This document shows positions 6,307-31,939 of a stretch of DNA of 32,350 nt, piece after piece; positions within the stretch are counted from its first letter, which is position 1, and each line of letters starts with the position of its first letter. Both the position numbers and the translations under genes were made by a program. The stretch comes from Planctomycetota bacterium (lineage in GTDB: Bacteria > Planctomycetota > Planctomycetia > Pirellulales > UBA1268): assembly GCA_016872925.1 (NCBI GenBank), contig VGYR01000013.1, positions 1-32,350 on the forward strand, given 5' to 3'. The notes below the pieces were generated by a model. It saw nothing but the letters and a program-made list of their open reading frames with translations. It made no database searches and had not been told where the DNA came from.

Positions 6307-9300
6307 TCAGGGGGCCTCGACCGGCGGCAGCTCCGGTGGACGAGCCGGAAGGTTTCCGTCGAAGTGGACGGCGTTCCAGTCGATCAGGCTTCCCTGCGGG
6401 GGGTCGGTGTTGAGGTCTGGCGCCGGGTCTTCCAGCACGCCGACGCCAAAGTTGCGGGCCTTGAGTTCCGCTGCATCGCTGGCATCGTTGATGCTGATTG
6501 CCCTCAGTGCCACTGGCAGGCCTTCCGACGGGTCCGGCGGATCGAGCGTGATGAGTGTGATGCCCGTGCTTCCCGAGACCGTGATGCGGTTCGACAACAC
6601 TTGGGCGTGGACGCGAGCAGGCGGAATGGAGGGAGTTGGGGGATCGACGGACGTATCGGGTGGGATACCCGCGACGCCTGAAATCGCGATCCCGGTTCCC
6701 GATCCCGACACCGAAATCGTGTTGCTGTTGGCCGTCAGATTCAGCACTGTGCTACGAGTCGTGTTCACGGCACTGATACCGGTGGGCACGCTCGAGATCG
6801 ATGTCCTCGTGACTGCGACGGTCGAAAGGTTACGGACTTGAATGCCGTATATGCCCGTGTTGGTGATGCTGGTCTGGGCGCCGTTGGCGACCGTTGGATC
6901 GGGGGCGACATCGACGTTGCTGTTCAACGCGGAGACGCCTGCAACTTGCGCGCCGCTTATCCGCGTCCCGTAAACCTGGACGACGGACCCGGTGCCACTC
7001 ACGTCTGCCACGGCGACTCCCGTGTTCGCCGACTGCAGGATGGACGAGCGGAGCAGCGTGGCCTGGATGCGGGTGGGCGACGATGTGCCCGTCACGCTCA
7101 CCCCGTCATTGCCGGAGTTGCGCACGGTCGAGTCCTGCACGAGCAGCGTCGCAGTCGATCCGCGAATCCGGATGCCGTCACCTTTGGCATTTCTGATCTC
7201 CGACGTGCCAGTGACGTACAGAGCGGCTCCGGAGCCGGAGACGAGTGCGCCGTTGCCCCCGATGCGGTCCAATTTCGAAGCGTTGAGGGTCGCGGAGGCG
7301 TTCGGCCCGGAAACGACCAGGCCGTCGCTGATGGTCGAGGTGATCGCGGAGCCATCGATCGTGGCCTTCGCCCCGGAGCCTGAGACGACGACGCCGCGGT
7401 CCGTGAGCAGTGAGCCGGAGGTGACGAGGGGCGAGCTTCCAATCGTCGAGGTCGTGAGTTTCACGCTAGCGGCCGCACCGGTCACTGCCACGCCGACGCC
7501 CTTCGTGTCGGTGATCGTCGCACTTGTCAGCACGATGGACGACCCGCCTCCTTCGGCTGCCACCGCAGTGCCGCTCACGTCCGCGATCACCGTGTTCGTG
7601 ATCGTCGCCCGGGAGTTGCTGCCCGAAGCGACGAACGCCTTGCCCTGGACTCCCCTGAACGCCGAGTTGCTGACCGACACGTTTCCAGAGTCGGCCGACA
7701 GCACGAAACCGTCGTTGGTGAGGTTTTTCAGTTGGAGCCGGTCGAAGTCGAAGCGGCCCTTCGAATTGGAGATCTCGACGCCGCGCTGCCCGGGGCCTGA
7801 ACCCTCGATGATCACGTCGGAGACCGTGGCCACGCCGCCGAATGGCAGGCCTCCGCCGTCCGTGATCCCGACCGTGGTGTTGACGATCTGGAAGTGGCTG
7901 ACGTCGGTGCCCGGCTGGTCGATGACGATCGCCGGTCCCAGCGGGCTGCTCAGCACGGGGTAGCCGGCGCTGCCGTCGCCGGCAAAGAACGACCTCGGGC
8001 CGCAGCTGACCGTCGGGATCGCGAGGCTGCTGCCCTCGCCGACCAGGTACTGGTTCTCAGCCTGGAACGAGTAGCCCGACGTGGGCGTCAGGTAGGGATT
8101 CGCCACGCTGCTGGTGCCCCGATGCACGTAGACGATGTCGTAGGCTTCCTTCGCAGCGTCTTGTGCGGACGAGAGAGACGTGAACGGCGAACCGGCCGAT
8201 CCGGTGCCCGGGGACTGTGCGGCGTTGTCCACGTGGAACACCCGCCACGGGGCGAGCGTTTCCGGGTTGATCGCCACGACCGGTTCCTGATGAGCCCGCA
8301 CGATGTGCTCGTTGCGCATCATCGGCTGCTCCATCTGGTCGGGCACGTTCCGCCGCCGGCTGCCTCCCATGCGGTAGGTGAGTCGGGCGAAGCCGGTGGA
8401 GTCGAAGTAGCTGTCGTTGTTGTACTGCAGGGAGAAGTCCCAGTTCTCCAGGAAGGTCATGTCGAGGCGGGTGTAGACACCGCCGAACCAGGGAACCACG
8501 TCCTGGCCGTCGGGGAAGTCGTAACGGGCGTTGCCGTAGGCGTAGCCGCCCACGCTGATCATGCCCGCCCAGTCGTTGAGCCCCGGAATGTAGGCGCCGA
8601 CTTCCAGGTCGGTGCCGGCCAGGCCCGCGTTGACGCCGTTCTGGCAGAGCACGACGTTCTGGACGAAGGGTCCCACGTATTCGGCCGTGGTGCCGACGGG
8701 AATGTATCCGTTGGAGCGGAGGTTTCCCCAGTCGGTCAGCCACTCGCCCGAGACGCCGACCTGGTTGTAGACCTGGCCGCCCGCGAACGTGGAGGTCGTT
8801 CCCGGGATCGTGATGGGCGAATATTGGTTGAGATCGCCGTCATAGTCCCAGTAGACGCCGATGCCCAGCAGCGATCCGCCGAGAAACTGCTTGCGGACGG
8901 CGCCGACGTTGGAGAAGAAGCCGCCGTAGACGGAGAGGTGGCTGCGGAGGTCGGCCGCCCACAGTCCCCCGAGGTCGTCCTCGAAGCCGGGGATGTAGCC
9001 GCCGAGCGTCATGTAACTGCCGACGTATCCGAGCCCCCGGTCGGCGGCGTTGATGCCGTAATAGAGGATGCCGGGGCCGTTGGCGTTGAGATTCTGGAAA
9101 CCCTGCACCGCGCGATTCACGACGCCGGCCCCAGGTGCCATGGCGGTCTGGCCCAGTTGCCCGCGGGCTGAGATCGGAGCCCCGGCAGCCAACGCGGTGA
9201 TCATCGTCGCCACCACGGCGTGCCTGCCGCGCTTGGCAACCCGGTTTCCATGACGACGGAAGCGCGGGGCACGTGCGGTCTGCCACCACCCGTGTGCTTC

Positions 9301-20246: not shown

Positions 20247-20319
20247 GCCCCCATCGTCTAGTGGCCCAGGACGTCGGGTTCTCAGTCCGAAAACCGGGGT
20301 TCGACTCCCCGTGGGGGTA
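20247..20319 (+). tRNA. tRNA-Glu (anticodon CTC)
   Basis: The cloverleaf is complete. Acceptor GCCCCCA pairs with TGGGGGT, the D arm is GTC...GAC, the anticodon stem is TCGGG/TCCGA with loop TTCTCAG (anticodon CTC at 20281-20283), and the T arm is CGGGG-TTCGACT-CCCCG. Discriminator A is at 20319. The 3' CCA is not encoded. The gene reads GAG codons and is the integration site of the downstream island: the integrase gene ends on the opposite strand inside it, with the integrase stop overlapping the anticodon. Confidence 0.95.
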
Positions 20320-21547
20320 CTTGAACGGTCGCGTCATTCGCAAAAGCGAGTGGCGCGGCCGTTTCGCTTTCGTCGTGCGAGTCGGTGCGGCTCCCTGCGT
20401 GCACTGACTGTGCCGGATTCTGTGCCGCTTTTTGGGCGGCCGCTTTGGCGAAGTGGTCGTCGGTCACCGTGAAGTAGTGCTTCCGGGCCACGTCGGGGCT
20501 GTTGCCGATCCACTCGCACACGACGTGGATCGGGAACTCGTCGGCGAGCTCCGTTTCCCGCGACGCCCGGAGGTTGTGGAACAGCTTCGGCCAGGCCGGG
20601 ATCTTGGCGGCCTCGAGGATCCGTGTGAACTGCGTCCGGAGGTTGGAGTTGGGGCCGCGGGCTCGGCAGATCACATGCACCGTCCCGGGCTCGGCCCGCT
20701 CGAACTGTTCTTCGAGGTAGGGGCGCAGCTCGGGGAACAAGGGGATCGTGCGCGAGGCCCCGCCCTTGAGGTGCTCGGTCTTGGGGCTGCGGACGTGGAT
20801 TCGGTCGTGCTCCCAGTCGATGTCGTTCCAGGTGAGCGCCAGATGCTCCGACGGGCACCGCAGGCCACCGAACCGACTCAGGGCGAAGATCAGCCGCCAT
20901 TCGTTGTCCGGGCAGGCGTCGAGCACTGCCTGCGCCGTCTGGCGCGTCACGAAGAAGTCACGGTCGGAGTTGGCCTGGCTCTCGGCCTTCACGTCGGCGA
21001 ACGGGTTTGCATCGACGAGCTTCGCCCGCAGGGCCGCCTTGAAATACTGCCGTGCCCGCTTGATCTCCCTCGAGACGGTCGCCGGCGAATAGCCGTCGTG
21101 CAGGAGTTTTTCGCGGTAGCCGTCGGCGTCGCCCTCGGAGATGCCGCGCAGCTCGCGCTGCGCCCCGAAATGGTCCGTCAGCAGCCTCCTCGTCTGCTCG
21201 AGGTTTCTGGTGGTGTTCGGTTTGAGTTTGGCGCGGCTCTTGATGTAGCCGTCGAGGAACGCGTCGAGTTTGGCTGGGGCCGTCGTGGCGCTCGTGCGTC
21301 GCGGGGCGAGCTCGGCGCGGGCGAGGCGGTCGTGGAGCCGGTCGTCGATCTCGGCGAGCCAGGCGGCCGTCTCGCGGTCAACAGGTTGGTGCGCCACCTT
21401 CGCGGCCAGGAGCGACTCGACCTTGAGCAGGATCGTCTGGGCGATCCGCTCCGAGACCTTGCCGAGGCGGATCGTGTGACGCTTGCCGGCCGGGCCGACG
21501 AACAGGATGCGCCGGCGGCCGCCGGGGTCATTTCCGATGGTGGCCAT
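20282..21547 (-). CDS. int: Tyrosine recombinase/integrase
   Basis: This 421-aa site-specific recombinase integrates and excises the island. A core-binding SAM-like domain spans about 92-175 (KLDAFLDGYIKSRAKLKPNTTRNLEQT). The catalytic domain follows: Arg230 (SRFGGLRCPSE), a lysine in the beta-hairpin (about 256), His324-x-x-Arg327 (FHNLRASRETEL), Trp346 at the second His/Trp position (CEWIGNS) and nucleophile Tyr358 (ARKHYFTV). The final residues (VPPRGVEPRFSD) are encoded inside the tRNA-Glu gene across attL, with the stop overlapping the anticodon. This is typical for integrases that read through their att site. GAGG lies 5 nt before the ATG. It is the last gene of the alpA-primase operon, 60 bp after the primase. 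Confidence 0.95.
   Translation of the reverse strand: MATIGNDPGGRRRILFVGPAGKRHTIRLGKVSERIAQTILLKVESLLAAKVAHQPVDRETAAWLAEIDDRLHDRLARAELAPRRTSATTAPAKLDAFLDGYIKSRAKLKPNTTRNLEQTRRLLTDHFGAQRELRGISEGDADGYREKLLHDGYSPATVSREIKRARQYFKAALRAKLVDANPFADVKAESQANSDRDFFVTRQTAQAVLDACPDNEWRLIFALSRFGGLRCPSEHLALTWNDIDWEHDRIHVRSPKTEHLKGGASRTIPLFPELRPYLEEQFERAEPGTVHVICRARGPNSNLRTQFTRILEAAKIPAWPKLFHNLRASRETELADEFPIHVVCEWIGNSPDVARKHYFTVTDDHFAKAAAQKAAQNPAQSVHAGSRTDSHDESETAAPLAFANDATVQVPPRGVEPRFSD
20301..20319 (+). repeat. Attachment site attL (tRNA-Glu 3' end)
   Basis: TCGACTCCCCGTGGGGGTA here is the T-loop to discriminator end of tRNA-Glu and recurs exactly at 31581-31599. A 3'-tRNA segment next to a tyrosine integrase is the usual crossover site. 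The tRNA remains intact after integration. Confidence 0.88.
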
Positions 21548-21607
21548 CGCTACCTCGTCCTTGCGGCAGTCGTGTGAATGGGATGAGCAACGGAACAGAT
21601 GGATAGT

Positions 21608-23914
21608 TCATCGGGGCTTCGCTCGCCAAGCCCCCGCCTCGAGATTCTGGTCGGCCGTTGCTCCTGCCAGCACGAATCGGCGCGTCGGCTTACCGGGCGT
21701 GCCGGCGGGAGTCGGAACCCAAGAACCCGCGCCGGCCTTCACCAGCTGGTCGAGCGCGGCTTCGGCCGCGCCGGGGCGTTTGAGCCAGCGGCAGTTTGTC
21801 TGAGCGTCGCGGGCGGTTGTCGCCCCGCCGCGGCGCTCGATCCAGTGAACGAGCCGGTCTCGGTCGCGGCGCAGAGCGCGGTCGATGTCGTTCTCGGCCA
21901 GGATCGCGTAGACGCGTTGCGTTTCATGCTTGAACCACTCGATCAGCCGGATGGCGGCCGCCATCGTGACGGCATCGACCCGGTCGGGATCGGGAACGGC
22001 GGAGACGTTCGCGGCGATCCGCACCTCATGGATCAGCAGAGCGAGCCGGGCCGTGATCTCCTCGAGCTTGCTCCAGGCGGCGGCGAGGTCGCCGATGTGT
22101 TCGGCCGTCTCGGTGTTGTGGGCGTCGTAGAACTCGATCCAGAGCCGCTTGGCGTCCGGGTCGAGGGAGAGCAGGGCGGGGCGCGGCGCACCGGTGTCAT
22201 CGGTGTCCGGCTGCAGGTCGTAGAGGCGGTCGAGCACGCGGTGCAGCTGGTCCCGCGTCAGCGGCGAGATCGAAGTCTCGCGCCACTGTTTCGGGCGCGG
22301 CGGGGGCGATGTGAGCAGGAGCCTCGCTAGCAGCCCGCTCTCGCGGCGCTCCTGCCCGAGCGCCCGCTGCAGGACGGCAGGCTGGATGCCGCCGGTCACG
22401 CAGACGGCCGCGGTGGGCACGTAGATCGACTTCCGGTTGCCCGTGCGCCGGTCAACCGTCACGGGCTCGGCGTTGAAGCTGGAGAGCCAGAAGGCCTCGT
22501 CTGCGCCTTTGCCCTGGGCATAGCGGTCGAGCGAGCCGAGCCAGCCGGCGAGCTCGTCGCGGGTGACGAGGATCCCGCGCTGGTTGTCGGCCAGGATCAC
22601 AGCGAGCGCCTCGACTGTCGTGTCGGAGACGTAGGCCCGCTCAGCGGGCGTAGGGGTCGGCGCGATCGGAGCCGGTCCGGCACTGGTGCTGCGCCGCCAG
22701 AGGGCGACGGCCTTTTCATGCTCGAGCAGTTTAGCGTCGTAGTCCTGCTCCACAGCCCGGTGCGCCTCGAACAGCCGGGATTGCCGCTCGCGGACGTGCT
22801 CGAGCACGGCCTTGAGGGCGGGCGTCTTGCTGGTGCCGCTCTCGCCCACGATCACCGTCCAGAGGATCGCGGGGACGGCGAATCCCGGCTTGAGCTCCAG
22901 GCGGCGGGTGGTGCCGATGGCGGCCGCCACGCAGGCCAGGAGGGGCAGGGCGACGTAGCTGGCGTCGCAGCCGATGGCGGCCTCGGCCTCGGTCACGAAC
23001 GAGGCCAAGGGCTCCGGCAGGGCGTCGGCCGGGAACGGCCGATAGGCCTCCGGCGGGTCGCTCTGCGTCCTCTCTGCGGTGGGCGCTGCGCCCAGGGGCG
23101 TGCGGCGCGTCCTCCAGGCGTTGGCGATCTGGCGCGGGCAGTCCGCGAGTTCGTCGGCCGGGAGGCCGACCGTCTGCATCCGCTCCATGATCGCGGTCGT
23201 GGCGTCGTCGACCGTCCAGCCGCGGGCTGCGAGGTCGCAGGCCACAGTGAACATCGTCTGCCGCCGGCCCGCCGGTAGGACTCGCCCGCTCTCGAGAAAC
23301 TCCCTCGAGAGATCGCCCATGGCAGCACTCGCGAGCGCGGGGCGCGGCGCGAGTTCGTCGAACGAGTAGACGCGGGCCGGGTCAACGTCGAGCAGCTCGG
23401 CTACCGGCTTCGTGTCGTACTTCCAGTTGATGAAGCCCGGAAGTCGCATGATCCTCGGCCAGTCATGGATCGACTGGTCGGAACCGAGCGCCGCGGCGAG
23501 GGCCTTCATGCGGCGCGACCAGGCCGCGGCGTCTTCGGTCGGCGCGTCGAGTCGCCACCAGGCGTGAATGCCGCCGCCACTGTTGAGCACGGCGGTGGGC
23601 ATCGGGAGGCCGGCCGCCTTGATGCGGCTCATGGCATCCTCGTAGAGCGTGCCGCCGTCGAAGTCGGCGAACAGGCATCGGGCGAGGCGCACACCCGCGG
23701 CGTCGGAACAGTTCACTCCGCGGCGCGGATTCGCCCCGAAGTAGATCTGGCGCTGGCGGGCATTGATGCTCGTCAGCCACGACACGACCGCGGGCAGCTC
23801 CGCGAGCGTGGCCCACTTGTTGCCAGGCGGGTTGAGCGGCCGGAACTCGATCACGTCCTCGTCGTCGAAGATCGCGGTCAGGAAGTCGCAGCACTGGTCG
23901 AGGGCCGGTCTCAT
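21608..23914 (-). CDS. Replication protein: AEP-type primase fused to DUF3987 (YfjI-like) ATPase
   Basis: This 768-aa protein probably starts replication of the excised element. The N-terminal primase-like domain (about 1-190) has ADFDGG with Asp84/Asp86, GGGIHAWWRL with His117, and RIMRLPGFINWK (about 154-165), the arrangement of archaeo-eukaryotic primase-like proteins. The middle (about 200-275) is helical and may be a PriCT-like linker. The C-terminal DUF3987 part starts near 295, with Walker A GESGTSKT (357-364) and a conserved LVTRDELAGWLGSLDRYAQGKGADEAFW block. The start at 23914 is fixed by a near-perfect AAGGAGGTG 6-7 nt upstream and a 4-base overlap with the preceding gene; the longer open frame to 24037 is not used. 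Confidence 0.85.
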   Translation of the reverse strand: MRPALDQCCDFLTAIFDDEDVIEFRPLNPPGNKWATLAELPAVVSWLTSINARQRQIYFGANPRRGVNCSDAAGVRLARCLFADFDGGTLYEDAMSRIKAAGLPMPTAVLNSGGGIHAWWRLDAPTEDAAAWSRRMKALAAALGSDQSIHDWPRIMRLPGFINWKYDTKPVAELLDVDPARVYSFDELAPRPALASAAMGDLSREFLESGRVLPAGRRQTMFTVACDLAARGWTVDDATTAIMERMQTVGLPADELADCPRQIANAWRTRRTPLGAAPTAERTQSDPPEAYRPFPADALPEPLASFVTEAEAAIGCDASYVALPLLACVAAAIGTTRRLELKPGFAVPAILWTVIVGESGTSKTPALKAVLEHVRERQSRLFEAHRAVEQDYDAKLLEHEKAVALWRRSTSAGPAPIAPTPTPAERAYVSDTTVEALAVILADNQRGILVTRDELAGWLGSLDRYAQGKGADEAFWLSSFNAEPVTVDRRTGNRKSIYVPTAAVCVTGGIQPAVLQRALGQERRESGLLARLLLTSPPPRPKQWRETSISPLTRDQLHRVLDRLYDLQPDTDDTGAPRPALLSLDPDAKRLWIEFYDAHNTETAEHIGDLAAAWSKLEEITARLALLIHEVRIAANVSAVPDPDRVDAVTMAAAIRLIEWFKHETQRVYAILAENDIDRALRRDRDRLVHWIERRGGATTARDAQTNCRWLKRPGAAEAALDQLVKAGAGSWVPTPAGTPGKPTRRFVLAGATADQNLEAGAWRAKPR

Positions 23915-24114
23915 TCGCCCACCTCCTTGTCCTTGTCGGCGCGGCGCGCGAGCCAGTCTTCGAGCGCCGCGACGGGGTAAAGCGTCACGCGGTCGAGCTT
24001 GACGTGCGGCACGTCGCCGGCCTGGGTCAGGCTCCACAGCTTGCGTTCACTGATGCCGAGCGCGGCTGCGGCCTCGCGGGGCCGCAGAGCGAGCGGGGAC
24101 GGGCGAGGCGTCAT
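23911..24114 (-). CDS. AlpA/excisionase-like helix-turn-helix protein (67 aa)
   Basis: This small DNA-binding protein has the winged-helix pattern of AlpA/Xis-type proteins: PREAAAALGISERKLWSLTQAGDVPHVKLDRVTLYPVAALEDWLARR (about 12-58). It overlaps both its upstream neighbour (another AlpA-like gene) and the primase by 4 bases, so the three are translationally coupled. Likely roles are excision accessory factor or regulator of the primase-int operon; the sequence does not separate them. Confidence 0.85.
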   Translation of the reverse strand: MTPRPSPLALRPREAAAALGISERKLWSLTQAGDVPHVKLDRVTLYPVAALEDWLARRADKDKEVGE

Positions 24115-24332
24115 ACGTCACCTCCCTTCCGGATCGTCCGCACGGGCTTGCAGCCGCCCGCGATCCAGTCGGAGAGTTCGGTACGACGCCACCGGACGGA
24201 GCCACCGAGCCGGATCGGCGCGGGGGCGCGGCCAGACGAGACGAGTCGCCACCAGGTTCTCTTGGCGACACCGCAGAGATGGGCCGCCTCCGCGGCCCGG
24301 ATCAGTTCACTTTCGAACGTCGGTTCTGACAT
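24111..24332 (-). CDS. AlpA-family transcriptional regulator/excisionase (73 aa)
   Basis: The helix-turn-helix region IRAAEAAHLCGVAKRTWWRLVSSGRAPAPIRLGGSVRWRRTELSDWIAGG (about 11-60) matches phage AlpA-type regulators. The chosen ATG at 24332 has GAGGA 6 nt upstream; the open frame continues to 24416 but has no such site. It is the first gene of the alpA-alpA-primase-int operon and lies next to the inverted repeats at 24420-24530, which are therefore good candidates for its binding sites. In P4-like islands AlpA turns on integrase and excision; the role here is by analogy. Confidence 0.85.
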   Translation of the reverse strand: MSEPTFESELIRAAEAAHLCGVAKRTWWRLVSSGRAPAPIRLGGSVRWRRTELSDWIAGGCKPVRTIRKGGDV

Positions 24333-24419
24333 TGGATGTCCTCGGGATGTTCCGCCGCGGCAGCGTCCTGCTGCTCGGCTGAAATCCACGATGACGTATC
24401 CGCCGCCTGAGTCCATGCG

Positions 24420-24530
24420 TCGCGTGACACGGGAAATCGCGTGTCACGCGAGTTCTGCCGGCCGAGGCCTGTAAATGCCCGACTGGACCGTAGCGAGGAC
24501 TTCTCGCGTGACACGGTCATGTCACGCGAG
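24420..24530. promoter_or_regulatory. Two inverted repeats with four TCGCGTGACA half-sites
   Basis: TCGCGTGACACG (24420-24431) is mirrored at 24440-24451, and CTCGCGTGAC (24503-24512) is mirrored at 24521-24530; each pair has an 8-nt spacer. Both left arms share TCGCGTGACACGG. The sites lie 90-200 bp upstream of the alpA operon start and abut the stop of the 424-aa gene. They could be operators for the AlpA-like proteins, excisionase sites, or iterons of a replication origin. Confidence 0.75.
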
Positions 24531-24532
24531 TT

Positions 24533-25807
24533 TCAACGTCGCTTGGGGGTTTTTCGCCTCGCGCGGGACCTCCGCTGGCGGCCGTTTTCAATGGCCTTCT
24601 CGACGCCGGAGAGGGTGAGGTCCGTCCGGCCTTTGAGTTCAGCCTCGTAGAAGTCGAGGATGACGACACGGTCCTCATTGACGCCCTGCCGAGCCTTGAA
24701 TGCTTCCCACTGTGCGAGGAGCTCGTCGTCCGGGTGCCGCCGTGGTTTTCTGTTGGACGGCTTCCGAGGTATTGCAGACGCAGACGCTCCGTCGTCGAGT
24801 TGTGGATCGGCTGCGGCGGTAGTCGCAGGTGCGGGGCCGGAGAAAGGGGTAAGGCGGTCGAATGCGTTACACCAACTCTCAAACGCCGTTGCCCAGTCAT
24901 GTATTGAGCGTGTTGAATCCCTGGCCACAGACATCATTGCCTGGGTTGCATCCCAGAGGGCTCGCACATGGCTTTCGATGGCTGGGGCCATCGAGCCCCA
25001 CAATAGAGCCTCACGCGCGGCGTTGTTTCGCAGCTTGAGGAGAGGGCCGACGGTGGGCTCGCATTCGAGAAGTACGGATCGCTCGCCGTCCGGGCACCAA
25101 GCCACCGAGTTCTTTCCGGCGGGAATGTCGGGCATTGGCGTCGGTGGGATGTGCCGAGCTTTTTCGCAGAGTTCATATGTCGCCCGGGTCGCTTCCATGA
25201 ATCGTGCAATCTGCAGGCGATCGGGAGTCGTGGGTGTGTTCCGTTGCTCAAACGGGCGCAGTTTTTCGATTGCGTCCTGTGCAGCGCGATAGATTGGCGA
25301 CCACTGCTTCTGGTCGAGGTCTGATGGCAAGGCAGCTATCGCCCTGATCTGGTCAACCACGGCGTCGATCCGCTCGATCACAAGCGGCATCGACGTGTTC
25401 CAGGTCTTCGTCTCGTGCACGGCGGCATGATGAAGGCCGCGTAGGCGCGAGGGGTTGATGAGCCGCTCGCGGTCGAGGAGCAAGTTGGCGTAGGCGCGGA
25501 AGGCGATGGGAGCCAGGTTTACGCCCTCGCCGTGGCGCAGGCCCGTCCTGCCGCAAAAGCGGATCGTGTCATTGATGGCGCACTCCATTGCGCCCCGGCA
25601 CGGCCATCGTTCGGCAGCGGCGATCTGGGCTGGGCCGATGCCATCGGCACACGGGCCGTATGGGCCTGGTGAGATGTATTCTCGGAGGGCATCGCTGAGG
25701 ACGACCGTTGCCCGCGGGTCGGGCGAGTCGGCGACAGGGCCGAGGAACCTGTGCAACAGGTTCACGGCTTCCGCTGCGGCGTCCGTGAGAGCGCGGATGG
25801 AGGACAT
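24533..25807 (-). CDS. Hypothetical protein of the island (424 aa)
   Basis: I do not recognise this protein. It is mostly helical with scattered Cys/His/Trp, including CADGIGPAQIAAAERWPCRGAM (about 53-74) and repeated amphipathic helices. The C-terminal 90 residues are basic (RKPSNRKPRRHPDDELLAQWEAFKARQ, ending GRQRRSRARRKTPKRR), suggesting nucleic-acid binding. The ATG at 25807 has no clear ribosome site; a TTG at 25855 would add 16 residues. It lies upstream of the operator-like repeats and the alpA-primase operon on the same strand, so it may belong to the replication/regulation module. No membrane segment is seen. Confidence 0.65.
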   Translation of the reverse strand: MSSIRALTDAAAEAVNLLHRFLGPVADSPDPRATVVLSDALREYISPGPYGPCADGIGPAQIAAAERWPCRGAMECAINDTIRFCGRTGLRHGEGVNLAPIAFRAYANLLLDRERLINPSRLRGLHHAAVHETKTWNTSMPLVIERIDAVVDQIRAIAALPSDLDQKQWSPIYRAAQDAIEKLRPFEQRNTPTTPDRLQIARFMEATRATYELCEKARHIPPTPMPDIPAGKNSVAWCPDGERSVLLECEPTVGPLLKLRNNAAREALLWGSMAPAIESHVRALWDATQAMMSVARDSTRSIHDWATAFESWCNAFDRLTPFSGPAPATTAAADPQLDDGASASAIPRKPSNRKPRRHPDDELLAQWEAFKARQGVNEDRVVILDFYEAELKGRTDLTLSGVEKAIENGRQRRSRARRKTPKRR

Positions 25808-25884
25808 CGTCTTATTGAGGGGGTGCCCCCGATTGTGCCGGGATTGGTTTGCCAATCAATGCCCCAGGACGCCGGGGATCGCAG

Positions 25885-25905
25885 GGGCCGGCAGGATGCC
25901 GGCCC
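25885..25905. repeat. Hairpin GGGCCGGCA-GGA-TGCCGGCCC
   Basis: A perfect 9-bp stem with a GGA loop. Its core CCGGCAGGATGCCGGC is identical to that of the hairpin at 26441-26457, and a degraded copy (CCGGCAGGATGCCG) lies at about 26188-26201. Confidence 0.7.
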
Positions 25906-26162
25906 GGGCCGCAAGGCGGAGAAGGGGCCGAGATGCAAAGGCGGGGCGGGGGCGTGGACGAGCGGAGGCCGCTCGCGGCGAGTGGCCCCTCGCGCAGGCC
26001 GGCGAGCCGCCGCGGCCGGAGCGGAGCTGCTATACGCGAAGCGGCCCGCATGGACGCGGTGTCCGGCGGCGTAGCCGTAACCGTGCACTGAGAAGGGAAT
26101 ACGTTAGGCGCGAATCAACGCTGCGCGAGTATCGCCCCGGCGCATCGGCTCGGGCTCGACAC

Positions 26163-26225
26163 GGCGGCATGGATGCCGCCGCTGAATCCGGCAGGATGCC
26201 GTCTGGCGGCCGAAGGATCGGCCGC
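26163..26225. repeat. Two neighbouring hairpins with GGA-containing loops
   Basis: GGCGGCA-TGGA-TGCCGCC lies at 26163-26180 and GCGGCCGA-AGGA-TCGGCCGC at 26206-26225. A partial GGCAGGATGCC copy lies between them. The shared GGAT loop with differing stems shows paired changes, which suggests selection on structure rather than on sequence. Confidence 0.6.
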
Positions 26226-26438
26226 ACCGATAGCCGCGCCAGCGGCCCACAGCGGCGGGGATGCCCTCGATTCCGCACTCAGGGGAGGGGGAAGCCGGGG
26301 GCGCGGCGCATGCCGCATCGCGGGGGGCGGCGAGGGGGAGGGGGGCGAGTCGATGCCGGATGCGGAGACGAGCCCCCTTCCCCCTGATGAGCCCCCCGCA
26401 GAGACCATCATCGAGGGCTAGCCGCTGCTCAGAACAGT

Positions 26439-26460
26439 AAGCCGGCAGGATGCCGGCTTT
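26439..26460 (-). terminator. Hairpin downstream of the restriction-modification operon
   Basis: AAGCCGGCA-GGA-TGCCGGCTT forms a 9-bp stem about 25 bases after the stop of the last gene of the minus-strand operon. The following minus-strand bases (ACTGTTCT) are only weakly U-rich, so termination is possible but not certain. It is also one of the GGA-loop repeats of this gap. Confidence 0.4.
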
Positions 26461-26484
26461 CCGCTGTGTTTGGAAGCAGCTGAC

Positions 26485-26673
26485 TTACGTCGCGCGGCGG
26501 ATCAGCGCGGGTCGATGAAGCGGTCGCACAGCCGCGGCGTTGGCAACGGCGACATGCGCGCGGTGGTCAACCTGCGCCACGGCCGTTGTCATTAGCCGCG
26601 GTTGAATCTCGGAAACCTTGACCTCAAAGGCAACAGACGGCTTTTGCTGCGACAGGTTCGTTTCGTTTGTCAT
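26485..26673 (-). CDS. Small protein of unknown function (62 aa), end of R-M operon
   Basis: This short protein (MTNETNLSQQKPSVAFEVKVSEIQPRL...) has no recognised domain. The case for a real gene is its 4-base ATGA overlap with the DUF6941 gene and its position as the last frame of a continuous operon. The middle segment FEVKVSEIQP looks like a beta strand; the C-terminus is Ala/His/Arg-rich. Confidence 0.5.
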   Translation of the reverse strand: MTNETNLSQQKPSVAFEVKVSEIQPRLMTTAVAQVDHRAHVAVANAAAVRPLHRPALIRRAT

Positions 26674-27089
26674 TGGATACCCTCCGGGGGTGTGCCGTCG
26701 ACGACCGGAAGTCGCCGCTCAATTAGGGGCGTAATACCATTCCATAACGCCTGTAAAACGTACATCCCCGGGCGAGGGAAGGCAACGTTTTCGACCTTAG
26801 CGATGATTTCGGCCACAACGAGCGGATTGTTTAGCTCGACTGGGCAAGACACTGCCAAGACGGGCTCAGTCTCGTCATTTATTTCGACGATTCTGAAGTC
26901 CACGCTCCCGGCGGATCTGCCATCAGTGATCGCAAGGTAGAACGCCATTCGACCGTGAATAGCCGGAAACTGGTTGGAAAGCAGCCCGGAAAAAGTGCCG
27001 AGAACGGTTCGCTTTCCCGTTGTCGGGTCCGTCCAGATCTCGTCCGCGACCATCAAGGCTAGAGGTACGGGAGTCGTGTGGTCAGTCAT
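26670..27089 (-). CDS. DUF6941-like conserved hypothetical protein
   Basis: This 139-aa protein has the pattern I associate with DUF6941: MVADEIWTDPTTGKRTVLGTFSGL near the start (about 13-36), FPAIHGRMAFYLAITDGRSAG (about 41-61), then beta strands and a closing PRPGMYVLQALWNGITPLIERRLPV (about 106-129). It looks like a small all-beta protein with no catalytic motif. A TTG two codons earlier is possible; the ATG at 27089 is preferred. It begins 24 bp after the nuclease stop and overlaps the small downstream gene. Being inside the operon suggests a role linked to restriction-modification or other defence, which is inference. Confidence 0.7.
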   Translation of the reverse strand: MTDHTTPVPLALMVADEIWTDPTTGKRTVLGTFSGLLSNQFPAIHGRMAFYLAITDGRSAGSVDFRIVEINDETEPVLAVSCPVELNNPLVVAEIIAKVENVAFPRPGMYVLQALWNGITPLIERRLPVVDGTPPEGIQ

Positions 27090-27113
27090 TTGCAATTCTT
27101 CTTGGATGCGTCG

Positions 27114-28013
27114 CTATTCGTCGTCGCTGCTGTCGTCCTCTGACACAGCATCGATGTCTGGAATTGTGGCGTCAGTCGGAGTTTCGTCAGCCCAACGGAT
27201 GTACGTGCGGTTGCGTATGCCGTACTCGCGAACGATCTCCGCGATCACCTGGTCGAGCGTTAGCAATCGATCGCCGCGTGTCGGGTCGGGGCTCTCTGTA
27301 GGCCAGGGCGGCCGGCCGCGTCGGGGGGGTGGTGTGAGCACGTCGAAGAAACCGACGTGCGTGCCGGACGAATCGTTTGTGTCATAGAGTCCGACGAAGA
27401 ACCGCTCGAACTTGGCGGCCGGGTCGCTGGTGTCGGCTCGTCCGGCGCGAGGGCGGAACGTCATCACGGCGTGCGCGAACGACGATTTGTCCGTTGTCCC
27501 GTCGTCGCATGCGTCGATCGGAATGAAGAAGACGCCGATCAAGACGGCATAAGGAAACCGCTCGTGGTGATCCATGGCCTCGGCGCGGAGTTCATGGTCG
27601 TTACGGACCATGTTCTTCGTGTATCGCCCGATGGTCAGCCGGCCCGTAGCTCGATCCTTCTTCGCATCACGGAAGTTCAGGGTCTTGATCGAAACAAGGA
27701 GCTCAAGGCCTGTGTCGGAGGTGGCGTAACGCACGTCGGTCTTTTTGATCTTCTTGTTCGACCCGCTCGCACTGCCGGTTTCGCGGCCCGACCCGTCGGG
27801 CATTGGAAGAATGGAATCGAATCGCCCGGTAGCTCGCAGCTTGGACGCAAGCAGCACGGCAATCGAGTTCGAGAGACGTTCGGAGTAGTTCTTCTTGAGA
27901 TCGCGATCTGCGCCGTCGGCGGGACGCGGGCCGGCATGGCGCAAAGCGTCCTCAAACGTCTGGATAGACGGCGCGGGAGTCGTGGCTTTCGCTTTGGGTT
28001 TCTTCTTCGCCAT
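27114..28013 (-). CDS. Candidate type II restriction endonuclease partner of the C5-methyltransferase
   Basis: This 299-aa protein has no family I can name with certainty. It starts 15 bp after the methyltransferase stop, where a restriction enzyme is expected. A Lys-rich N-terminus is followed by TDVRYATSDTGLELLVSIKTLNFRD (about 92-116): Asp93 followed by a beta-hairpin with Ser-Ile-Lys110 fits a PD-(D/E)xK-like core with Glu104 or Ser108 at the variable site. Then come YTKNMVRNDHELRAEAMDHHERFPYAVLIGVFFIP (about 131-165) and FERFFVGLYDT (about 202-212). The C-terminus is very acidic (DAVSEDDSSDDE). The alternative is an accessory protein of unknown role. The nuclease call rests on position plus one weak motif. 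Confidence 0.6.
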   Translation of the reverse strand: MAKKKPKAKATTPAPSIQTFEDALRHAGPRPADGADRDLKKNYSERLSNSIAVLLASKLRATGRFDSILPMPDGSGRETGSASGSNKKIKKTDVRYATSDTGLELLVSIKTLNFRDAKKDRATGRLTIGRYTKNMVRNDHELRAEAMDHHERFPYAVLIGVFFIPIDACDDGTTDKSSFAHAVMTFRPRAGRADTSDPAAKFERFFVGLYDTNDSSGTHVGFFDVLTPPPRRGRPPWPTESPDPTRGDRLLTLDQVIAEIVREYGIRNRTYIRWADETPTDATIPDIDAVSEDDSSDDE

Positions 28014-28028
28014 GAGCTTAGCTGCGGC

Positions 28029-29234
28029 TCAACGGAGCACTCGGGTCGATGATCGCGCCGTGGTGCGGCGCTTCAACTTTGGTCGGGGCGCGTCGGCTGG
28101 GGCCGCCGCAATCGCTCGCTGAAGATCCCGGTCAAAGGCTGCGGGGCGTTTGAGATTGCCTCGTGAAAGCCGCGACAAAAAGCCCTGGAGGGCGCGGTGG
28201 GAAAGTGGCTTCGTCGGGAACTTCAAGAAGTCTTGGATAGACTTTGCGGGCTTTGAGACCGGCCAAGTGGAAACGTCGACGGTCCATGCGTCGCCGTCGT
28301 CGCTGAATGCGGCGCGCGGCCAGGCACTTCGCCGGTCGAACGGAACCGGTAGCAAGGGCTTCCACGTCGTCGTGGCACTGAGGCGGCTGCCGACCCACTC
28401 CGCGACCGGAACGGACACCGCGTTACCGACCAGCTTCCAGCGGTGGCTGTTGCGAGCGACCTCGGCGGCCGGGAGGGACCAGTCCGGGTCGAAACCTTGG
28501 AGGCGTTCCGCGTCGCGGATGTCCGGCGTCACGAACTGCCCATCGGGCATCCAGATCGCAGGCGGGGACGGGATTCCGATGGTCGAGCCGCCCTTCAGCG
28601 TCGGGACTGCGTCCACAGCCCAACCGAGGCCCCGAAGGCCTTCGGTCCAGAAGAAGCCGCAGGCTACGTCCTTGGCGGCTATGGGATCGCGGGGCTGGCG
28701 GCTGGCCTCGAGCAGCAGTGGGGCGGGCGACTTCTCCTTGGACGCCACGATGAAGACTCGCTCGCGGCGCTGCGGCAAGCCAAAAGCCCGCGTGTCGAGA
28801 ACGCGATACGCCCAGTGATAACCGAGGCGTTCGAGTTCGCTCGTCACATGCCTGATCGCGTTTCCGCGGCCGAGCTGAAGCATGAACGGCACATTTTCAA
28901 GAACCACCCAGGGTACGTCAGACGCACGAAGCAGGCGGAAGACGTGATCGACGAGGCTCGATTGCTGGCCGCGAAGCCCCTTCGTCAGACCGGCCTGAGA
29001 CAGGTCCTGGCAAGGAAAGCCGGCGACGACGAGGTTCACGGCGCGTGGGAGCCGTTTCAGCGTCGTGACATCTTCGTGAACCGGAACCTTCGGAAATCTG
29101 TTCCGGAGAACCGCAACGGCTCCGGGCTCAATCTCGCAGAGCAGCTCGGTGTGGTGGCCGGCGCGAGCCAGGCCGAGTTCAAGACCGCCGATCCCGGCGA
29201 ACAGGCCGGCGACGTGAAGGGATGAGTTTGCCAT
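28029..29234 (-). CDS. DNA (cytosine-5)-methyltransferase
   Basis: This 401-aa enzyme transfers a methyl group from S-adenosylmethionine to C5 of cytosine in a specific site. Motif I GLFAGIGGLELGL (about 10-22), motif IV with catalytic Cys75 (GFPCQDLSQAG), motif VI ENVPF (113-117), motif VIII QRRERVFIVAS (155-165), and motifs IX/X with RWKLVGNAVSVPVAEW (265-280). The target-recognition region (about 190-255) is short, and a further 110-residue C-terminal extension of unknown role ends in a basic tail. The recognition site cannot be read from sequence. The Vsr partner suggests that deamination of 5-methylcytosine is a real cost here. The start lies within the end of vsr (56-bp overlap). Confidence 0.95.
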   Translation of the reverse strand: MANSSLHVAGLFAGIGGLELGLARAGHHTELLCEIEPGAVAVLRNRFPKVPVHEDVTTLKRLPRAVNLVVAGFPCQDLSQAGLTKGLRGQQSSLVDHVFRLLRASDVPWVVLENVPFMLQLGRGNAIRHVTSELERLGYHWAYRVLDTRAFGLPQRRERVFIVASKEKSPAPLLLEASRQPRDPIAAKDVACGFFWTEGLRGLGWAVDAVPTLKGGSTIGIPSPPAIWMPDGQFVTPDIRDAERLQGFDPDWSLPAAEVARNSHRWKLVGNAVSVPVAEWVGSRLSATTTWKPLLPVPFDRRSAWPRAAFSDDGDAWTVDVSTWPVSKPAKSIQDFLKFPTKPLSHRALQGFLSRLSRGNLKRPAAFDRDLQRAIAAAPADAPRPKLKRRTTARSSTRVLR

Positions 29235-29706
29235 GAGCGCCGTCCTTTGTCCTTGCTCTCCGCTCGGACTCGGTGCAGGCCGTGAAGAAGGCGGTCAGCT
29301 TTCTCTCGAGGCGCACGGCGTTCTTCACGTCGCACTCCCACACGGTCAACACCCGATATCCGAGGCGGCGTAACTCCTGCGCCTTCCTGGCGTCGCGGGT
29401 CCGATTGGTCGAAATCTTTTCTTCCCAAAACGTTTTGTTTGCGACCGGGATTCTACCGGCTTCCCCCCCTTTCGTTCTGCGGCAGTTCCGGTGGCCGTGC
29501 CAAAAACAGCCGTGGACGAAAATGGCCCACTTCTTCCGCTGGTTCGAGAGGTCGGGGCGGCCGGGGAGGGAAGCTGCGTTCGCCCGGGAATGGTGGCCCA
29601 GGCGGGTTACGGCGCGGCGCACGGCGATCTCGATGTCGGTGCCGTGGCGGCGCACGGCCTGCATCATTCGGCGGCGCTTGGCGGGGCTCACAATGTCGGC
29701 GCTCAT
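29179..29706 (-). CDS. vsr: Very short patch repair endonuclease
   Basis: This 175-aa nuclease nicks DNA at T:G mismatches made by deamination of 5-methylcytosine. It has the Vsr hallmarks: SPAKRRRMMQAVRRHGTDIEIAVRRAV at the start, catalytic LPGRPDL (Asp52), IFVHGCFWHGH (about 62-72), FWEEKISTNRTRD (about 93-105) and GYRVLTVWECDV (about 116-127). E. coli Vsr is 156 aa; the extra C-terminal residues are Arg-rich and overlap the methyltransferase start by 56 bp. It is first in the operon vsr-dcm-nuclease-DUF6941-small ORF, the reverse of the E. coli dcm-vsr order. Confidence 0.93.
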   Translation of the reverse strand: MSADIVSPAKRRRMMQAVRRHGTDIEIAVRRAVTRLGHHSRANAASLPGRPDLSNQRKKWAIFVHGCFWHGHRNCRRTKGGEAGRIPVANKTFWEEKISTNRTRDARKAQELRRLGYRVLTVWECDVKNAVRLERKLTAFFTACTESERRARTKDGAHGKLIPSRRRPVRRDRRS

Positions 29707-29951
29707 TTGCGTAACCTTGACCCAAGTTTAGGCGAGGGCGGCAGCCCGTCGGCGTCAGCAAAAAGTCGCCTCACATCGCAGTTGCGGCGGTTTTGCAGAC
29801 ATCGGCGATTCAAGCGGCGGCGCACTACTGCGGAACGTGCGCTGTGGCGCGACGTAGGGGATGGTTGCAGACCCCCCCGTAAGCATGGTAAGACGCCACG
29901 GTGCGTGCTGGCCGGAGATCAGCGTTTCTTGATGCTTGGAGGAGCGAGCCG
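29707..29951. other. Divergent intergenic region of the cargo genes
   Basis: 245 bp between the start of vsr (leftward) and the HIRAN-GYF gene (rightward), presumably holding both promoters. A weak candidate for the rightward gene is TTGCAG (29865-29870) with TAAGAC (29889-29894), spacer 18. I see no clear operator. Confidence 0.4.
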
Positions 29952-31382
29952 ATGCCTTCTGTGCCTGGCGGGGTTGCAATCGACGAGATTCCTCGCCCCG
30001 ATCTTTCGCTTACAAGCGTCCGATGGATGACCGAGATTCCAGACTCGGAAGATTCATCCATCGTCGAGGCCGTCGAAATGTTCACGGTCGTAGGAGAGCA
30101 ATACAGGCTGGACAGTGTTGAAGCAGCTGTGAGAGCCATTGAAGAGGAGGTCAGCTTTCTGCCTCCCCGCTTCTGGCTTGTTCCGGATAACAACAACTCT
30201 TTTGATCCGCTAGCAGTAGCCGTGTACGCCGTTTCTGGTGGGAACGGTTATCACGTCGGCTTTCTTCCGAAGGATCAAGCGAGGCATTTTCGCGACAGCA
30301 TGGAGCAGCTCTCGCGCGGTGGGCAGTCGCTGGAAGTTCTGGGCTGCATCACTCAAGGAAAATCGTCCCCGCATCCCAATGGCAGGATTTACCTACCGGT
30401 AGAGTTTGCGGCGCTTTGCGCCAGTGGCTATTCGAGCCAGGAAGAGAACCGCATTTCATGGGTCGAGGATGCCACGCCGGTAACACCTCGCGCCGCCACG
30501 GGTAGTCCCGGCGATGTGTTCACGTTCGAAGAGTTGTGCAAGATCTACTGTTGGTACGCCAGAAAGAGGCGGTGGTTTTGCTTTCCGCATGACTGCGAAG
30601 CTAAAGCTGAAGGGATTCGGTCTGCAGGCATAGGCCTTCCCGTGGCAGATTTCCAGCCATTTATGACGGTGCAGTCAGTTCCAGCGGGGAAGGCGAGCGC
30701 TCCCGCGGAGCGGCAGAGCCGGGCGGAGGCTGCATCGCAGTGGTTTTACGCAAAGAACGGGCGGGAGTACGGGCCGTTTGATGCTGTCGGATTACGGGAC
30801 GCCGCCCGATCAGGCCAGCTGCTGCCAACGGATCAGGTGCGCCGCGGCGATCTCACCCAGTGGGCTTCGGCAAGTCGGGTGAAGGGACTGTTTTCCGAAG
30901 CTGCCGTCGCTCCGAGTGCCAAGCCCGTCGAGTCATCGCTTGAGGCGTTGTTGTTCCAGCAAGATGATCTTCCAACTGAGTGGAGCGTGGGGCCGTTCGA
31001 GGCGTCTGCGCCCCAAATGTTCGAGAAGATAAAGAACGCCAAAATGCAAGGCAGTTATCCACTCCTGTTCAACGGCAGTCGGAAGGGCGGTGTGACGGGG
31101 CTCGTGTTTGAAAATCCTGGGGATGCAAGGCGGTGTTACGACGAGGTGCGTTCTACATTCGGCAAGAATGTGGGCATTGTGGCGCGACTCGGAGATGCAG
31201 CTCGGTTTTCGTACATGCACATGGAAATGCCGCCGCAGCTAAAGCTGCCTCCGACAGAGAACACTGATCTGGTGTTCGTCCACGGCAGAGTGGTTGTTCA
31301 TATTCGAATGGGGGATTGCCAGCCCGAGCCTGTGGTGGAATTCGCCGTAAAAATCGATTCGAGGGCGCGTTCGTTCGGTTAG
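29952..31382 (+). CDS. HIRAN and GYF_2 domain protein, novel architecture
   Basis: This 476-aa protein is the only rightward gene of the island. The N-terminal domain at about 43-130 (FTVVGEQYRLDS...FWLVPDNNNSFDPLAVAVYAVSGGNGYHVGFLPKDQARHF) matches HIRAN, a domain known to bind single-stranded 3' DNA ends in Rad5/HLTF. A Cys/Trp-rich middle (about 188-235, LCKIYCWYARKRRWFCFPHDC) is unassigned. A GYF_2 domain follows at about 263-313 (QWFYAKNGREYGPFDAVGLRDAARSGQLLPTDQVRRGDLTQWASAS). The C-terminal 150 residues form an unknown alpha/beta domain. No nuclease or helicase motif is seen. The start is fixed by GGAGGAG 7 nt before the ATG. Its stop lies about 200 bp inside attR, and the base composition looks less GC-rich than the core. 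Confidence 0.75.
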   Translation: MPSVPGGVAIDEIPRPDLSLTSVRWMTEIPDSEDSSIVEAVEMFTVVGEQYRLDSVEAAVRAIEEEVSFLPPRFWLVPDNNNSFDPLAVAVYAVSGGNGYHVGFLPKDQARHFRDSMEQLSRGGQSLEVLGCITQGKSSPHPNGRIYLPVEFAALCASGYSSQEENRISWVEDATPVTPRAATGSPGDVFTFEELCKIYCWYARKRRWFCFPHDCEAKAEGIRSAGIGLPVADFQPFMTVQSVPAGKASAPAERQSRAEAASQWFYAKNGREYGPFDAVGLRDAARSGQLLPTDQVRRGDLTQWASASRVKGLFSEAAVAPSAKPVESSLEALLFQQDDLPTEWSVGPFEASAPQMFEKIKNAKMQGSYPLLFNGSRKGGVTGLVFENPGDARRCYDEVRSTFGKNVGIVARLGDAARFSYMHMEMPPQLKLPPTENTDLVFVHGRVVVHIRMGDCQPEPVVEFAVKIDSRARSFG

Positions 31383-31939
31383 GAAGTCGGCGCGTCGGGG
31401 CTCCTCTCGGATTGACCGGCGGCGAGGCGTCGAGCGAGAGCCGCGAGGACGGCGATTGAGTAAGGCGGCAGCGACGGCAAAATGGCCAAAAGCTCAATGA
31501 GCCGGTCCGCCGCCGGTGTGCCGGATTCTGTGCCGGGTGCTGGCGGATTTCGCGTCTCGCGGCCAGAATCCGCTGGTTGCTCGACTCCCCGTGGGGGTAT
31601 ATGAACAGCCGTACAGTCCGCAAACGCGGGCGGTGCGGCTGTTTCTTTTTCCGTCTGCTGCCGTTTGCTGCCGTCTGCGTGCATGTGCGACGTCGGATTT
31701 GACGTCGCTTTTTGGAAGTGTTCCTCGGTCACTTGCAGGTAGTGCTTCCGGGCGACTTCCTCGCTGTTGCCGATCCACTCGCAGACCACGTGGATGGGGA
31801 ACGCATTGGCGAGCTCCGTTTCCCGCGACGCCCGGAGGTTGTGGAATAGCCTCGGCCACGAAGGCACCGACGCCTTCGAGAGTATCCGGAGCAGCTGGGT
31901 TCGCAGGTTGGCGTTCTTGGAGCGGTAACGCTGGATGAC
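31379..31939 (-). pseudogene. C-terminal remnant of a second integrase
   Basis: Codons in 31600-31939 match the last third of the island integrase: VIQRYRSKNANLRTQ, LFHNLRASRETELANAFP (HxxR pair), VVCEWIGNSEEVARKHYLQV with the nucleophile Tyr, and PPRGVEQ. The N-terminal two thirds, including the first catalytic Arg, are missing; upstream sequence is unrelated. Reading leftward through attR, the frame runs on into the island and stops at 31379 with an added tail that includes DRLIELLAILPSLPPYSIAV. It is not functional as it stands, and marks an older element in the same att site. Confidence 0.85.
31581..31599 (+). repeat. Attachment site attR
   Basis: TCGACTCCCCGTGGGGGTA is an exact copy of the tRNA-Glu 3' end (20301-20319) without the rest of the tRNA. 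It bounds the island on the right. Followed after two bases by TGAAC, also found just after attL. Confidence 0.88.

Follow-up and report, generated by a model that had tools for sequence, protein, structure and literature searches.

A predicted Type II restriction-modification operon with vsr and an endonuclease of a family missing from the searched libraries, carried by a tRNA-Glu integrative element of a Planctomycetota bacterium

The 32,350-nucleotide stretch of Planctomycetota contig VGYR01000013.1 analysed here (the window) contains an integrative element at a tRNA-Glu gene, and we hold it roughly 85% probable that the cargo of this element is a Type II restriction-modification (R-M) system composed of vsr, a C5-cytosine DNA methyltransferase (C5-MTase; dcm) and a restriction endonuclease of 299 amino acids (aa). 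The architecture of the operon is that of an ordinary Type II R-M system, while the family of its endonuclease is not described in the libraries searched. As expected of Type II, the MTase gene lies next to the endonuclease gene and the endonuclease comes without an ATPase or translocase subunit; a Pfam scan of the operon, the 299-aa protein included, found no helicase or ATPase domain, and the replication-type DUF3987 protein is encoded outside it.

The operon comprises five frames, all on the minus strand: vsr, dcm, the 299-aa gene, a DUF6941 gene, and a 62-aa open reading frame (ORF) (Table 1). The first two overlap by 56 bp, 15 bp separate dcm from the 299-aa gene, and a gap of 18 or 24 bp follows, depending on whether the DUF6941 gene starts at TTG 27095 or at ATG 27089. 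The 62-aa ORF overlaps the DUF6941 gene by the 4 bp ATGA and is preceded by a Shine-Dalgarno-like GGAGG. Codon-position GC content is gene-like in all five frames. Profile scores exceeded the cut-offs for Vsr (TIGR00632, 123.3 bits versus a curated 97.85), the C5-MTase (PF00145, 160.4 versus 22), and the DUF6941 protein (PF22091, 57.5 versus 27). The C5-MTase additionally matched the PADLOC model MTase_II PDLC03324 with 452 bits, and its motifs PC/PCQ, ENV, QRRER, and RLQGF are conserved (alignment A7). These coordinates and matches agree with an earlier note on this DNA, which had listed the five same-strand frames and their spacing.

The identity of the 299-aa protein rests chiefly on its company. 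It gave no significant match in Pfam, NCBIfam or PHROGs, and the PADLOC model REase_II PDLC03558 matched members of its family weakly (best 2.2e-4). Its homologues were gathered by nuclease sequence alone, regardless of neighbours, which yielded 26 complete copies including that of the window. One Gemmatimonadaceae metagenome-assembled genome (MAG) encodes a homologue of 58% identity; six plasmid homologues are spread across five lineages (31-38% identity), and 11 genomes of the window's phylum, its own among them, carry the nuclease. Further homologues occur in MAGs and in a second, divergent clade of plasmids and MAGs, which profile comparison showed to be homologous to the first (hhalign probability 98%), while a search of viral contigs and phage records found none. 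A DNA methyltransferase gene directly adjoins 25 of the 26 complete homologues. In seven cases (the window and loci L002 and L024-L028) it encodes a C5-MTase of one clade, and in the other 18 an Eco57I-like N6-adenine MTase, whose gene often overlaps that of the nuclease by 11-14 bp. Gene order differs in L002, where the nuclease gene is followed by an Mrr-like gene and then by convergent vsr and dcm. So regular an association with MTases of two chemical types would be difficult to account for if the 299-aa protein were not the endonuclease of the R-M operon. In all likelihood it is, and it represents a family that the three libraries lack. A sample of 392 genomes from the phylum included 11 with the nuclease, 11 with this C5-MTase clade, and six with both (P = 4e-8 for co-occurrence, shared ancestry ignored). 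As the two are always adjacent when they co-occur, their arrangement is not due to chance.

The conservation pattern of the family points the same way. Residues P70, D93, K110, N134, P154, and R192 are invariant in all 26 aligned nucleases, S108 occurs in 25 of them, and an acid (D or E) stands at position 141 in all 26 and at position 145 in 25. The resulting core is D-x14-S-x-K, with a pair of acids on the helix that follows, spaced by four residues. The window protein, with D93...S108-x-K110, lacks the canonical D...(D/E)-x-K motif and has a permuted variant of it, in which D...x-K is accompanied by a conserved downstream acid (D93, K110, E141/E145). Enzymes of the CCGG family are active with a permuted site of this kind, whose consensus is PD...K...D/E (PMC6344858), and the conserved residues fit a putative PD-(D/E)xK nuclease with an acid permuted as in that family. 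Canonical D-x-K at positions 108-110 occurs only in the divergent homologues L032, which has F at 145, and L105. A strict exchange of S108D for E145 was considered as proof of the permutation and is weakened by L105, which keeps E at 145. A second nuclease-like family beside the same C5-MTase clade, described below, has a canonical E-A-K. One low-confidence structural model placed D93 and K110 on neighbouring strands of a core of the order alpha-beta-beta-alpha-beta; in both models obtained, the sequence of elements was compatible with the alpha-beta-beta-beta-alpha-beta core of the PD-(D/E)xK superfamily. The linkage to MTases and the family-wide conservation of the core support the proposal of the earlier note that the 299-aa protein, with its D...SIK core, is a new or poorly described nuclease.

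The distribution of Vsr follows the class of the MTase. Vsr is encoded at five of the seven C5 loci and at none of the 18 N6 loci (Fisher P = 4e-4; with close neighbours alone, P = 3e-3; shared ancestry ignored in both); in L026 it lies about 2.6 kb away, beside a second C5-MTase. This restriction to C5 loci matches the known role of Vsr, which corrects mismatches arising from deaminated 5-methylcytosine (m5C) (PMC6116569). In a maximum-likelihood tree the seven C5-paired nucleases form one clade (support 87/92), and one switch of partner, between C5 and N6, suffices, so that the C5-paired branch probably changed its class of MTase partner once. The direction of that change is one we infer, because the nuclease tree is unrooted; three long branches leave its deeper order uncertain. 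The fuller proposal, that this serine-permuted endonuclease family exchanged an N6-adenine for a C5-cytosine MTase once, kept its target site, and gained Vsr to counter the mutational burden of m5C, we rate at slightly under even odds. If it is true, the target site should hold both A and C. A literature search for a swap of MTase class within one endonuclease family returned nothing relevant.

Put together, these features suggest the following mechanism. The C5-MTase would mark a short DNA site with m5C, and the 299-aa protein would cut that site wherever the mark is missing. Its active site would be of the permuted PD-(D/E)xK kind, with S108 in place of the usual acid two residues before K110, and an acid of the following helix (E145 or E141) may take over. 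Vsr would nick the T:G mismatches left by deaminated m5C and so remove the mutational cost of the mark. The nuclease family would otherwise pair with N6-adenine MTases, with the C5 branch having changed partner once.

We then considered whether all five genes form one functional cassette, as the earlier note had suggested, with the DUF6941 and 62-aa proteins regulating, inhibiting or assisting the endonuclease. The tight spacing, the ATGA overlap, and the GGAGG site suggest co-translation, and a GC-rich hairpin lies after the 62-aa ORF as a possible transcript end, although it has no clear T tract and a terminator scan did not call it. Against this, protein searches around all the other nuclease loci found no DUF6941; 7 of the 12 nuclease-bearing genomes tested with the Pfam model do encode DUF6941, in all seven on a contig other than that of the nuclease, and the genome of the window encodes DUF6941 once more at another place. 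No 62-aa-like ORF was found downstream of DUF6941 genes elsewhere, and the 62-aa protein gave no significant match in Pfam, NCBIfam or PHROGs. A congeneric genome (G018) has the last 68 codons of the nuclease, and about 22 bp separate these from a sequence whose counterpart in the window starts past the 62-aa ORF; the DUF6941/62-aa pair was either gained by the window or lost by G018. A five-gene unit is therefore unlikely: vsr, dcm, and the nuclease recur together, while the last two genes do not, DUF6941 being unlinked in other genomes and the segment missing behind the nuclease remnant of G018, and they are most likely co-transcribed passengers. A literature search on DUF6941 found no publication in the library covered.

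Several observations speak against the R-M reading itself. The stretch read around one nuclease homologue (L007) contains no MTase, and two C5 loci (L025 and L028) are without Vsr. The phmmer and profile searches of PDB sequences gave no meaningful match to a solved endonuclease, the AlphaFold models were poor (mean predicted local distance difference test scores of 57 and 44), and Foldseek found no significant match. Comparison with VIA listed, among others, Kpn2I, BstEII, PaqCI, EcoT38I, XisH, a Holliday resolvase, EndoMS, and Shedu, all with Z below 8; we do not rely on these nucleases, because they were tied with unrelated proteins such as acetyl-CoA carboxylase. Finally, the C5-MTase clade occurs without this nuclease in five of the sampled genomes, where its partners are instead Vsr, a second nuclease-like family, another C5-MTase or a DruE-like helicase, and several plasmids likewise hold the clade together with Vsr and without the nuclease. 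The second family, with a canonical D...E-A-K core (E-A-K family), is found beside the same C5-MTase clade and is weakly similar to the 299-aa family (hhalign 62%); the one member scanned had no Pfam or PADLOC match. It probably provides an alternative restriction enzyme; both families are present in L024.

The MTase-only loci could mean that the C5-MTase and Vsr form a modification-repair pair on their own, with the 299-aa protein as an unrelated neighbour or a non-cognate accessory factor. We consider this distinctly improbable, given that 25 of 26 homologues collected blind to their neighbours adjoin MTases of two chemical classes, that the nuclease and the MTase co-occur far above chance, and that nuclease-like residues are conserved. 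Because the MTase-only loci carry other partners, the MTase-Vsr pair is rather a module used with more than one nuclease. Least credible of all is a degenerate, inactive restriction enzyme, which the S108-x-K110 of the window protein, in place of (D/E)-x-K, might suggest, since 25 of the 26 homologues, from clades far apart, retain S108 along with an acidic helix residue, enzymes of the CCGG family work with a permuted PD...K...D/E site (PMC6344858), and the 299-aa frame is intact with gene-like codon bias.

Among known systems, the predicted operon comes close to Type II R-M systems with Vsr, for whose Vsr endonucleases REBASE has an established prefix, V. (PMC4081073). It shares with them an MTase, an endonuclease, and Vsr in a single operon, and it differs in that its endonuclease family has no Pfam, NCBIfam or PHROG model. 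With the CCGG family (Cfr10I, NgoMIV, Kpn2I, PfoI) the 299-aa protein shares the permuted catalytic order, the acid lying downstream of the lysine (PMC6344858), but there is no sequence similarity and its D-to-K spacing is 17 residues. Kpn2I was among the better VIA matches (Z 6.7 over 180 residues, rmsd 4.9), a Z tied with that of an unrelated enzyme. Assignment to the CCGG family was considered on account of the permuted site and was rejected because the recognition motif R-(D/E)R after the catalytic lysine is absent, both in the window protein (K110-TLNFRDAKKDR) and in clade A5 (K116-GVTGAFRNLTNR). Plasmid pairs of an Eco57I-like N6-MTase and a small "hypothetical protein" (PADLOC MTase_II PDLC03301/PDLC03267) resemble the window operon in having a homologous nuclease directly downstream; their MTase is of the N6-methyladenine (m6A) type and they have no Vsr, whereas the window has a C5-MTase and Vsr. 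Druantia-type loci (DruE/DruK, helicase-nuclease) were also considered, since the same MTase-Vsr pair stands beside DruE-like helicases in L002 and some plasmids, as well as in L045 and L047. They were rejected: ten window proteins scanned against PADLOC gave no DruE match, and neither DruK nor a similar helicase is present in the element. Such MTase-Vsr pairs beside DruE-like helicases were seen in L099 too, and in L002 (337-11737) the R-M genes and the Mrr-like gene come after DruE and DruK.

The element that carries the operon, which the earlier note had missed, spans about 11.3 kb (20301-31599) between two identical 19-bp direct repeats, and it also holds a 440-aa ORF (Table 1). Past the right repeat, close to where the contig ends, lies the C-terminus of a second integrase; it is part of a 354-bp imperfect repeat, which suggests a second element in tandem. 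An eroded copy of the element persists at the same tRNA in G018. There a HicA/HicB-like toxin-antitoxin pair (L010, ~6700-7413), recognised by eye, lies immediately upstream of what is left of the truncated nuclease gene. A search of the 59 other related genomes did not find the C5-MTase, which makes the operon a recent or sporadic arrival. Downstream of it lies a dispersed non-coding segment that possibly marks a cassette boundary. One copy (84%) is found on another contig of the window genome (G000:C8; L083, 1501-1805), downstream of a DUF262/GmrSD-like gene, and one (91%) in G018 after the nuclease remnant (L010, 7436-7703). All three copies have the same orientation relative to the upstream gene.

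Table 1. Features of the window, and members of the E-A-K family at other loci
Feature	Position	Strand	Evidence or remark
tRNA-Glu (CTC), integration site	20247..20320	+	
Direct repeat TCGACTCCCCGTGGGGGTA, att-like core, left element end	20301..20319	+	Equals the 19-bp 3' end of tRNA-Glu
Tyrosine integrase, 421 aa, ends inside the tRNA gene	20282..21547	-	PF00589 2.9e-11; phrog_1 integrase 2e-34
DUF3987/RepB-primase replication protein, 809 aa	21608..24037	-	PF13148 1e-71; PF16793 1e-7; PHROG helicase and primase
Dispersed non-coding segment, ~300 bp, GC-rich, hairpin-rich	26162..26465	-	Downstream of the R-M operon
GC-rich hairpin GCCGGCATCCTGCCGGC, 3' of the 62-aa ORF	26435..26470	-	Possible transcript end; no clear T tract
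62-aa ORF, probable passenger	26485..26673	-	ATGA overlap, GGAGG upstream; no family match
DUF6941 protein, start TTG 27095 or ATG 27089, probable passenger	26670..27095	-	PF22091 2.3e-15
Predicted restriction endonuclease, 299 aa	27114..28013	-	MTase linkage of homologues; conserved residues
dcm, C5-cytosine DNA methyltransferase, 401 aa, modification enzyme	28029..29234	-	PF00145 9.4e-47
vsr, very-short-patch repair endonuclease, 175 aa	29179..29706	-	TIGR00632 6.1e-36; PF03852 7.8e-24
GYF_2-domain ORF, 493 aa, divergent from the R-M operon	29901-31382	+	Weak HIRAN similarity
Identical 19-bp direct repeat, right element end	31581..31599	+	
E-A-K family members (other loci)	L024 8753-9553; L046 6560-7402; L047 6554-7396; L097 8450-9307		

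If the reading holds, plasmid and island proteins hitherto recorded as hypothetical would become recognisable as restriction enzymes, with a defined family, a motif, and natural partners. The m6A- and m5C-paired branches of one endonuclease family would offer a natural comparison, and because the presence of Vsr tracks the methylation chemistry across the two branches, the idea that m5C carries a cost would become testable.

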